A DNA stretch of 41,008 bases from NCBI GenBank assembly GCA_025451035.1, contig JANWLE010000017.1:1-41008 (forward strand), in the 5' to 3' direction. Shown in pieces: positions 35,253 through 38,650 of this stretch. This DNA is from Solirubrobacteraceae bacterium (GTDB lineage: Bacteria; Actinomycetota; Thermoleophilia; Solirubrobacterales; Solirubrobacteraceae). The notes under the pieces were generated by a model. It was given only the letters and a program-made list of their open reading frames with translations. It made no database searches and was not told the DNA's origin. Positions within the stretch are counted from its first letter, which is position 1, and every line of letters begins with the position of its first letter. Position numbers and translations under genes: made by a program.

Positions 35253-37228
35253 AAGGCTCCTCGTCGCTGTTCGCGCTCGTCGTGCTGGGGGCAACCAGCC
35301 TGGCACTGCTCGCCTCGCCGTCTCATCCAGGCGCCCTGCAGGCGATGACCGTGCCCGCCGGGCCGAGCGCCTCGGCGGGGGTCATCTTCCGCTTTGACCA
35401 AGTCGGCTATCCCGTCGGCGGCGCCAAGCGAGTGCTGGTGATGGTCCGCCGGCGGGTGCGCTCACGCCGCTTTGAGCTGCTCGACGCGCAGGGGAGGGCC
35501 GTTCTGCGTGCGCCCGCCAGCGGCCCGGCGCGCTGGAACCGGCGCTACCTCGTATACGCGCTTGACTTCAGCACGGTGCGCACGGCCGGCGTGTACACGC
35601 TGCGCTTCGCCGGAGCAAGCTCGCAAGCGGTGCGGGTCGCGGACCCCCGCACGCTGTACCGGTCGCTCGCCGACGGCGCGATCGCGTTCCTGCAATCCCA
35701 GCGCGACGGGCCGGAACCGATCCCCGGCGCGCTGGGACGCGAGCCCGCTCATCTAAATGACGCCTCCGCGGCGGTGTACCGCACGCCGCGCTTTCGCGGC
35801 ACGGCGCTCGCCGGCGGGCTGCGCGCCAGCGGCACGCGCGTGAACGCCTCCGGGGGATGGTTCGACGCCGGCGACTACCTGAAGTTCGTGGAGACCGCGA
35901 GCTTCGTCGACGTCACGCTCCTGTACACCGCGCGGGAAGACCCCGGCGCGCTCACCGACCTGCCGGCGCTGCTCGCCGAGGCGCGCCACGGCACCGACTG
36001 GCTGCTACGGATGTGGGATCAGAGCCGGCGCGTGCTCTACCTCCAGGTCGGTCTCGGCGACGGCTCGAGCGGCCAGCGGATCATCGGCGACCACGATCTA
36101 TGGCGCCTACCGCAAGCCGATGAAGCGATGGGCCAGAGATCCGGCTCGCCCAGCTATTTCATCGCGCACCGGCCGGTGTTCGCCGCGAACGCCCCTGGTG
36201 CACCGATAAGCCCCAATCTCGCCGGGCGCCTCGCCGGCGCGTTCGGGCTGTGTGCTCAGGTGTTCGCGCGCAGCGACCTGGCGTACGCTCAGCGGTGCCT
36301 GCTGGCCGGCCAGCTGATCTACGCCCAGGCGGACACCCACCCACGGGGCGGGCTGGTGACGAGCGCCCCGTTCGCCTACTACCCGGAGCGCGAATGGCGC
36401 GACGACATGCAGCTCGGGGCCAGCGAGCTGTACCTGGCGACAAGCACGCTCGCGGGCGCCGAGCCCCCCAGCCTGCCCCACCGCCAAGCCGTCTACTACC
36501 TGCCGCTGGCGGGCCGCTATGCCAACGCCTACATCACCGCCAGCTTCAGCGGGCACGACTCGTTCAACGTGTACGACACCTCGGCGCTCGCCGACAGTGA
36601 CCTGGTTCGCATCTTGCGCTCAGGGCCAGCCCGCCGTCAAATACAGGAAAACGGAAAGATCAACGTGCCGAGCGACATACCGTCGCTCCTGAGCGACCGC
36701 CACGACCAGCTCTCGCTCGCTCGCCGGCTCGCGGCACACGAACCGTTCGGCCTGGCCAACCCGGCGATGCCCTACGACACCGTCTCGCACGCGCTCGGCT
36801 ACATCGTGCAGGCGCGGCTGTATGACGCGATGACCCACAGCCACACGTTCGCCCACCTGGCGCAGAACCAGCTCGACTGGGTGCTCGGCGCCAACGCCTG
36901 GGGATCCTCCTTCATCGTCGGCGCGGGCTCGGTCTTCCCGCACTGCCTGGCCTCCCAGATCCCGAATCTCGCGGGCTCCCTCGACGGCCGCCCGCCAATC
37001 CTGGCCGGCGCCACGGTCGACGGGCCGGCAGCGGTGGGACAGCTACGGGGTCTCGGAGCGCCGAGCGGCTACCGGCGCTGCTCCGTTGGCGGGGACCGGT
37101 TCGCCGCCGAGGTGGGCCACGGCCTGGGCTACCTGGACGACGTGCGCTCGCCGCTGACCTCTGAGCCGAGCGACGATCTGGCAGCGCTCACGCTGCTGGC
37201 AGCGGCGGTATCAGCTACTCCAAATTGA
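35249..37228 (+). CDS. glycoside hydrolase family 9 protein
   Basis: A 659-aa secreted (alpha/alpha)6-barrel hydrolase, probably acting on a beta-glucan or on the polymer made by its operon. A signal peptide (SLFALVVLGATSLALLAS) precedes an N-terminal Ig-like CelD_N domain (about 45-140, FRFDQVGYPVGGAKRVLVMV). The catalytic domain begins near 145 with the DAGD motif in GGWFDAGDYLKF (about 203-214). It continues with LDWVLGANAWGSSFIVGAG, and the C-terminal SEPSDDLAALTLLAA holds the probable acid Glu. GTG 35249 overlaps the fusion gene stop by 4 nt (GTGA). Its last codons run into the operator array upstream of the Fic gene. Confidence 0.9.
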   Translation: MKGSSSLFALVVLGATSLALLASPSHPGALQAMTVPAGPSASAGVIFRFDQVGYPVGGAKRVLVMVRRRVRSRRFELLDAQGRAVLRAPASGPARWNRRYLVYALDFSTVRTAGVYTLRFAGASSQAVRVADPRTLYRSLADGAIAFLQSQRDGPEPIPGALGREPAHLNDASAAVYRTPRFRGTALAGGLRASGTRVNASGGWFDAGDYLKFVETASFVDVTLLYTAREDPGALTDLPALLAEARHGTDWLLRMWDQSRRVLYLQVGLGDGSSGQRIIGDHDLWRLPQADEAMGQRSGSPSYFIAHRPVFAANAPGAPISPNLAGRLAGAFGLCAQVFARSDLAYAQRCLLAGQLIYAQADTHPRGGLVTSAPFAYYPEREWRDDMQLGASELYLATSTLAGAEPPSLPHRQAVYYLPLAGRYANAYITASFSGHDSFNVYDTSALADSDLVRILRSGPARRQIQENGKINVPSDIPSLLSDRHDQLSLARRLAAHEPFGLANPAMPYDTVSHALGYIVQARLYDAMTHSHTFAHLAQNQLDWVLGANAWGSSFIVGAGSVFPHCLASQIPNLAGSLDGRPPILAGATVDGPAAVGQLRGLGAPSGYRRCSVGGDRFAAEVGHGLGYLDDVRSPLTSEPSDDLAALTLLAAAVSATPN

Positions 37229-37300
37229 TCCAAAAAATTCCAAACATTTGGAACTAGATGCTAAACTCCAAGGACTTGGATCGATTTGGAGTAATTTGGA
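37219..37300. promoter_or_regulatory. symmetric operator array of eight TCCAAA/TTTGGA half-sites
   Basis: TCCAAA begins at 37219, 37229 and 37239. TTTGGA lies at 37247-37252, TCCAAG at 37267-37272, CTTGGA at 37275-37280, and TTTGGA at 37285-37290 and 37295-37300. Every left site has its mirror partner about the centre 37259.5. The outer three on each side are spaced exactly 10 bp, one helical turn. Sites 3-4 and 5-6 form two palindromes with 2-bp spacers. TAAACT at 37262-37267 near the centre may be the -10 box of the Fic gene. The array starts in the last codons of the GH9 gene and ends on the base before the Fic start codon. Confidence 0.8.
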
Positions 37301-38650
37301 TTGTATGTAGCCAAGCCACCCGATAGAACCGATCTCTGGTCCGAGCTCCACGGTGAGCGCTTGATGGAGATCTTGGGGATTGAGGTAGCCGACGGGGCGA
37401 GGGACTACGTTCACTGGGACAAGCTCCGCCATCTGGAGCCTCCGAACGGGCTCACTCATAGGGAGTGGTGGCTCGTGCTCAAGATGGAGCGTGTCTTGCT
37501 GCTGCGCCAGATCCCGCTTACGGATCCGCAGGGGAAAGCGTTCGTATACGGCGTCCCAGATCTCGTAGCGCGTCGCCTGCACTACGTAGACCAGCGTTGC
37601 AGCGGCGAGGTGGCGATGCCGGAGGTCGTCACCGCCGACGAGCAGGCTCGCCGCCACTACCTGGTGAACTCGCTAATGGAGGAGGCGATCCGATCTAGCC
37701 AGCTGGAGGGCGCCACCACTACGCGCGCGGTTGCCAAGGAGATGCTGAGGACAGGGCGCGAACCGCAGGATCGCGGCGAGCGGATGATCCTCAACAACTA
37801 CCTGGCGCTCCAGTACATGCGCGATCAGATGGACGAGCGGCTGACGCCTGGGGCCGTGATGGAGCTGCAGCGCATCCTCACGGAGGGGACGCTCGACAAT
37901 CCAAGCGCGGCAGGCAGGCTCCAGCACTCCGACGAGATTCGCGTCTCGGTCATCGACAGCTTCGACGGCACCGTCATGCACCATCCGCCGCCCGCCGAGC
38001 AACTGCCGGAGCGGCTGAAGAGGATGTGCGACTTCGTCAACGAAGCCGACACCGCGGATCGCTTCATCCATCCCGTGATCCGCGCGATTCTGCTGCACTT
38101 CTGGCTGGCCTACGACCATCCATTCGAGGACGGCAACGGGCGCACGGCGCGAGCGCTCTTCTATTGGTACATGCGGACGCGTCGCTACTGGCTGGTCGAG
38201 TACCTGTCGATCTCAAAGATCCTCCGTGGCGCTCCAGCGCAGTACTCACGCGCATTTCTGTACACGGAGACCGACGAACGAGACGTCACTTACTTCATCG
38301 TTCACCAGCTCGAAGTCATCGAGCGGGCCGTCGACCAGTTGCACGAGTATCTGCGTAAGCAGGTGAGCGAGGTTCGTGAAGTCGAACGCCTCCTAAGGGG
38401 CTCAGACCGTTTCAACCATCGTCAGCTCGCGCTGCTTGGCAATGCCCTGCGGGGATCGGATGCACGCTACTTGTTTCAGGCACACGCCGCCAGCTATGGC
38501 GTGACGCACGAGACAGCGAGAAACGATCTGCTCCAGCTGGCCAAGATGGGACTGCTCGAGCAGCGCCGCGAAGGACGGCGCTACTCGTTCAGCCCGCCGC
38601 TTGACTTGGCCGAGCGCTTGAAGGCGCTCGGCCAGCCTTCTATCACTTGA
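37301..38650 (+). CDS. Fic-domain AMPylase with C-terminal winged helix
   Basis: A 449-aa Fic protein that would transfer AMP from ATP to a protein hydroxyl. The catalytic motif [12 protein letters not shown] is complete (about 273-284). The inhibitory S-x-x-x-E-G motif (SSQLEG, about 131-136) lies N-terminal to it, making this a class II, autoinhibited enzyme. A Fic_N-like region precedes it. Residues 365-440 form a winged helix ([41 protein letters not shown]). The start is TTG 37301: MYVAKPP is the family N-terminus, and GGAG at 37288-37291 gives a 9-nt spaced ribosome site lying inside the operator array. It overlaps glnN convergently by 8 bp. The target protein is unknown. Confidence 0.92.

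Follow-up and report, generated by a model that had tools for sequence, protein, structure and literature searches.

A Fic gene in a Solirubrobacteraceae bacterium is preceded by an ordered array of short half-sites that, judged from this sequence and those of its relatives, is likely the operator at which the encoded Fic-helix-turn-helix (HTH) protein represses its own gene. We describe the array within a window of 41,008 nucleotides, the whole stretch of DNA that was analyzed. The claim rests on the arrangement and conservation of the array, not on the number of copies of its pentamer.

The array spans 82 bp (37219 to 37300) and consists of eight TCCAA/TTGGA half-sites. Read directly from the sequence, these are TCCAAA at 37219 to 37224, 37229 to 37234, and 37239 to 37244; TTTGGA at 37247 to 37252; TCCAAG at 37267 to 37272; CTTGGA at 37275 to 37280; and TTTGGA at 37285 to 37290 and 37295 to 37300. 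Successive steps are 10, 10, 8, 20, 8, 10, and 10 bp, and the two inner palindromes are TCCAAA-CA-TTTGGA and TCCAAG-GA-CTTGGA. A preliminary description of this DNA had reported eight half-sites, a common mirror center at 37259.5 for all four pairs, 10-bp outer steps, and inner palindromes 28 bp apart, and all of these agree with our coordinates. It had also stated that the array starts inside the stop region of a GH9 gene and touches the Fic start codon. Indeed, the 5' end of the array falls in the final codons of the GH9 gene, the stop of which (37226 to 37228) lies inside it, and the last half-site adjoins the TTG at 37301. On the forward strand, the half-sites form an upstream module, >>>< (37219 to 37252; TCCAAA at 37219, 37229, and 37239, then TTTGGA at 37247; steps of 10, 10, and 8 bp), and a downstream module, ><<< (37267 to 37300; TCCAAG at 37267, CTTGGA at 37275, then TTTGGA at 37285 and 37295; steps of 8, 10, and 10 bp).

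We compared this layout across 12 loci picked for TCCAA sites (the window, L002 to L009, L086, L089, and L115), leaving out L010, which carries GCCAA. One-mismatch sites in register were counted, and the third site of L007 was taken from the spacing analysis. Two modules of four half-sites were kept in 11 of the 12 loci, the window included. The downstream module read ><<< in 11, the exception being L115, whose layout is irregular, and the upstream module read >>>< in nine, all of which have the full order >>>< ><<<. The upstream module of L008 and L009 is flipped, giving ><<< ><<< with both modules in one orientation, and L009 has one additional site. Within modules the convergent step was 7 to 8 bp and the other steps 10 to 11 bp; between modules, the start-to-start gap in the nine >>>< ><<< loci was 16, 18, 20, or 22 bp. 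The preliminary description had proposed a single, perfect mirror array bound on one DNA face, and such a rigid 82-bp operator is contradicted by the 16- to 22-bp range of gaps and by the same-orientation modules of L008 and L009. Because the gap varies and two loci flip the upstream module, we regard the ~34-bp module as the conserved unit; two modules can be placed in two ways, of which the global mirror is one. As a separate observation, the gap was even-numbered in all nine >>>< ><<< loci, which are related to one another.

Elements of gene expression can be read within the array. A probable extended -10 element, TGC-TAAACT (37259 to 37267, forward strand), was recognized by eye in the gap between the modules, and a probable Shine-Dalgarno sequence, GGAG (37288 to 37291, forward strand), stands 9 bases before the TTG and overlaps the half-site at 37285. 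The preliminary description had the array cover the likely Shine-Dalgarno and -10 sequences; both are readings from the sequence, and a scan of 37150 to 37400 returned no sigma-70-type promoter. Pattern matching was also a weak means of placing the promoter core: a TAnnnT hexamer is readable in the module gap of all 12 same-hexamer loci, and this weak pattern occurs in 20 of 36 bacterial gaps; 12 of 49 archaeal gaps contain a TATA-like element. The TTG start at 37301 lines up in register with the ATG that opens the gene in close homologues.

The fic gene itself (37301 to 38650, forward strand) encodes 449 amino acids, with a Fic domain, an inhibitory-helix motif, and a C-terminal HTH. The Fic domain matches Pfam Fic (PF02661) at 63.8 bits against a curated cutoff of 24, which places the protein among the Fic/Fido AMPylases. 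It carries the motif HPFEDGNGR, which fits the pattern HPFx[D/E]GNGR and of which P274, G278, N279, G280, and R281 are invariant in the A1 homologue alignment, and SSQLEG at residues 132 to 137 fits the class II motif [S/T]xxxE[G/N], with E136 and G137 invariant across 42 sequences. The protein is a solo, probably self-inhibited (class II) AMPylating enzyme. Matches of the C-terminal domain to HTH_DeoR were weak (E value of 0.0058, below the cutoff; 15 of 42 homologues matched at 0.01), and the profile match to 8cil, which we take to be the PDB entry of the Coxiella burnetii protein CbFic2, extends through the HTH; by sequence, this HTH is probably winged. The best match in the PADLOC library, which gives no cutoff, was SoFic (1.2e-39), and the protein fell far outside the SoFic equivalog NF046030 (36.1 bits against a cutoff of 550).

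No gene accompanies fic consistently. Across 10 loci we found no common frame of at least 80 aa outside fic, except between L008 and L009, which are close relatives. Among short upstream cross-matches other than those between L008 and L009, 13 of 14 fell in the array itself, and one lay elsewhere (L002/L007, 22 aa). A partner gene or small antitoxin beside fic, and with it the conserved partner that marks a type II toxin-antitoxin system, was therefore not common to these 10 loci, L008 and L009 again excepted.

Arrays of this kind extend to distant homologues. The homologue loci were the best 80 of 106 relatives from one scan, plus others from whole genomes, and 82 of them were scored (75 of the best 80 and 7 from whole genomes, with L040, L042, L066, L073, and L074 left out); the frame-broken L078 was left out of protein counts. 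A hexamer-array score was computed on the 120 bp before each start, the threshold being a score above all 100 shuffles. This was reached in 47 of 82 upstream regions versus 2 of 82 control stretches taken 297 to 420 bp upstream, or in 43 of 78 versus 2 of 78 once 4 duplicate loci were removed; the other 35 of the 82 upstream regions failed to beat all 100 shuffles. One further homologue (G040:C123:3246-4181) gave three overlapping same-strand matches and is probably a decayed or frame-broken copy.

The hexamers of distant loci differ (TACTAA, TACCAA, TATCAA, TGTAAA, GCTAA, and others), and these homologues, archaeal ones included, share a ladder of ~10 bp. Among representatives, sites on the same strand and no more than 16 bp from each other were spaced by 10 to 11 bp in 34 of 35 cases for CCAA, 44 of 51 for CTAA, 18 of 27 for TCAA, and 2 of 2 for GTAA, so the helical phasing noted in the preliminary description is found inside modules across hexamer classes. 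Convergent spacing peaked at 7, 17, and 27 bp for CTAA and TCAA and at 9 to 10, 19 to 20, and 30 bp for CCAA. Some archaeal loci (e.g., L251 and L248) contain two complete >>>< modules. The preliminary description had named a lack of hexamer conservation upstream of orthologous fic genes as one half of what would refute it; we found the hexamers kept in close homologues and replaced by residue-matched ones, as set out below, in many distant homologues, which does not refute it. The array looks like an operator of the Fic protein itself.

The array is not a property of all fic genes. Only 1 of 16 other Fic loci (22 taken, 6 of them lacking a usable start or a usable stretch before it) beat all shuffles, and, unlike the window array, SoFic-like genes did so in 0 of 12 cases (14 taken, 2 skipped; all under the NF046030 cutoff). 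TCCAA/TTGGA-like repeats lie upstream of the start in L109 and L111, two other Fic genes from the same order.

When proteins were sorted by their putative recognition helix (codons 401 to 410; 38501 to 38530, forward strand), the residue that best tracked the operator was 404, a glutamate in the window protein. D at this position went with CCAA, Q with CTAA, G or A with TCAA, and E with CCAA or CTAA; residue 403 had a further bearing on the half-site. This rule was recorded before 77 further loci were fetched. Starts were found for 52 of these by a first rule and for 19 more by a looser one, leaving 6 unplaced; 14 of the 71 placed loci had no prediction, so that 57 were scored. The helices and upstream stretches of the 52 loci were viewed before scoring, and the residue 404 rule was left unchanged. 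Each prediction was ranked against 16 tetramers, of which the rule had named four, and P at position 404 was scored as GTAA only.

The predicted tetramer ranked first of 16 in 36 of the 57 new loci; 20,000 label permutations averaged 14.9 and went no higher than 26. Sixteen of the 57 test proteins shared at least 80% identity with a training protein, and three of these shared 100%; among those less than 80% identical to any training protein, the prediction ranked first in 25 of 41, and among those less than 60% identical, in 20 of 33. Restricting the test to representatives gave 23 of 39 (permuted mean, 10.2), and the training set itself gave 45 of 81, with 5 loci lacking a prediction. The 21 misses comprised 4 of the 12 loci with A, 1 of the 8 with D, 2 of the 4 with E, 4 of the 6 with G, both loci with P, and 8 of the 25 with Q; the missed G404 loci were Methanoculleus-like and showed one or two exact sites apiece. 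Wherever CCAA was predicted among the test loci, in eight cases, the prediction stemmed from D404. No test locus belonged to the class of the window itself (E404, non-Y403, CCAA), so the evidence for that class comes from the training set, where 11 of 12 scored members fit and L010 had the predicted tetramer second.

Two further analyses pointed to the same residue. In a label-free scan of 100 representatives drawn from training and test loci, residue 404 came first of 418 positions when these were ranked by how well they explain operator similarity over and above Fic-domain identity, with a partial r of 0.217 compared to 0.136 for the next position and a standard deviation over positions of 0.037; the pairs underlying these values are not independent of one another. 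On a tree built from residues 1 to 365 only, without the HTH (152 tips), there were 22 changes of half-site class, and the rule agreed with 16 of 18 independent pairs, training loci included (sign test, P = 0.0007), the two negative pairs being L068/L254 and L016/L218. Outside the rule, N occupies the residue 404 position in a diverged branch made up of L142, L147, L151, and L153, on viral contigs, together with L221 and L226. Upstream of the gene, these loci carry inverted repeats of the TTTCAA or CTCAAAA type, and TCAA came out on top in L221 and L226. The viral contigs L138 to L153 were read by eye, and L154 to L217, together with plasmid and phage matches, were listed and left out of this reading.

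Chance, low-complexity sequence, or the repeats of a mobile element could in principle produce such a pattern, and the pentamer count by itself lends this some plausibility: eight copies in a 102-bp stretch were matched in 3 of 10,000 shuffles, at least seven copies of some pentamer are present in many other stretches of the window, and the window holds 40 TCCAA/TTGGA sites, of which 8 lie in the 82 bp of the array. We therefore do not treat pentamer density as proof of an array. The window locus (row L082) nonetheless scored above all 100 of its dinucleotide shuffles for hexamer arrays. Across the assembly that contains the window (2.87 Mb and 94% complete), the exact pattern TCCAAANNTTTGGA occurred only in the array and exact TTTGGANNNNTTTGGA in three places, all within the array, with two further places elsewhere when one mismatch was allowed. 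Confinement of the exact patterns to one place in the genome suits an operator for a single gene and speaks against a mobile element, and the layout is kept, and its letters co-vary, in homologues; an origin by chance or by repeats is hardly credible.

In the autorepression we favor, the recognition helix of the Fic C-terminal HTH would dock on each TCCAA/TTGGA half-site, with neighboring half-sites about one helical turn apart and two modules of four flanking and overlapping the probable promoter core. Since the modules overlap that core, filled modules would stop fic transcription, giving negative autoregulation without a separate antitoxin or repressor gene. That Fic binds, that it does so cooperatively, that the effect is repression and not activation, and that there is any tie to enzyme activity are inferences. 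The array might instead be bound by a separate regulator whose gene lies elsewhere, leaving the HTH to serve localization or activity switching, roles that are discussed for CbFic2 in the part of that report available (PMC10628234), and it is by co-variation that the array is assigned to Fic. The half-site letters, however, track a residue of Fic itself in bacteria and archaea, also on the HTH-free tree, and no neighboring regulator was common to the 10 loci, which makes this option very unlikely. Fic might also bind the array and activate or fine-tune its gene, or use the array mainly as a scaffold for oligomerization. Eight sites are many for plain repression, and CbFic2, according to the accessible text, dimerizes on DNA and shifts between AMPylation and deAMPylation (PMC10628234). 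Yet the sites overlap the probable -10 element, the Shine-Dalgarno sequence, and the start region and adjoin the start codon, and the available account of CccR places the site from which it represses close to the -35 and -10 elements (PMC9755527); we judge activation or scaffolding to be quite unlikely. Bolder than autorepression, and unlikely, is the idea that a Fic oligomer on phased modules would be kept inactive or deAMPylating. The operator would then double as antitoxin and set both level and activity, loss or titration of the DNA would release the enzyme, and bacteria and archaea alike would have retained the device, with one main residue setting the half-site.

For this family of Fic enzymes, encountered here in both bacteria and archaea, our reading predicts much of the DNA site from one or two residues of the protein. 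The array thereby offers a ready test of restraint in Fic enzymes that have no separate antitoxin, and the loci form a natural series for studying joint change of an HTH and its operator.

The operators of Phd-Doc and other type II toxin-antitoxin systems are autoregulatory and hold toxin expression down, with the antitoxin binding the DNA. Here, unlike in Phd-Doc, a single protein combines the enzyme with the putative DNA-binding part, and the loci compared had no second gene in common. The Escherichia coli anti-phage AMPylator Sofic is restrained by the small protein AS1, as stated in the portion of the report at hand (PMC12249575), whereas the loci compared here had no common small partner. 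The matched range of solved SoFic chains does cover the HTH stretch of the window protein. Six SoFic-like loci (L300, L302, L304, L306, L307, and L309) have inverted TATGTATAG...CTATACATA repeats upstream, L309 more than one, which are probably a different autoregulatory operator.

CbFic2 is a class II Fic protein with a C-terminal winged HTH, on which DNA causes dimerization and changed activity, as far as the available text describes (PMC10628234). The window protein resembles it in class and in a profile match to 8cil that spans the HTH. CbFic2 was studied with random DNA, unlike the case here, and its own operator is not described in the sections we could consult (PMC10628234). The 2009 Fido paper, again in its accessible portion, suggested a possible role in regulating fic expression for HTH domains that are fused to Fic (PMC2686095). 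The closest precedent is CccR, the Fic-HTH autorepressor of Yersinia pseudotuberculosis, for which the available text gives 46 protected nucleotides and two inverted 10-bp repeats 26 bp apart (PMC9755527). The window protein shares with CccR a Fic domain and, by its weak HTH_DeoR matches and 8cil alignment, a C-terminal HTH. CccR binds its own promoter near the -35 and -10 elements in negative autoregulation, according to the same partial source (PMC9755527), and co-variation leads us to propose the same here. Autoregulation by a Fic-HTH protein is thus already known, to the extent that this source covers it, and the preliminary description's statement that no operator of this form had been described needs to be narrowed to the modular array. 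In open-licence papers, as far as their text was available, we found no phased two-module operator, no account of its bacterial and archaeal occurrence, and no residue 404 code. Compared by description rather than with the CccR sequence, the CccR site has two inverted 10-bp repeats and the array has eight hexamers in two phased modules; this two-module operator, and the residue 404 code that accompanies it, appear to be new.
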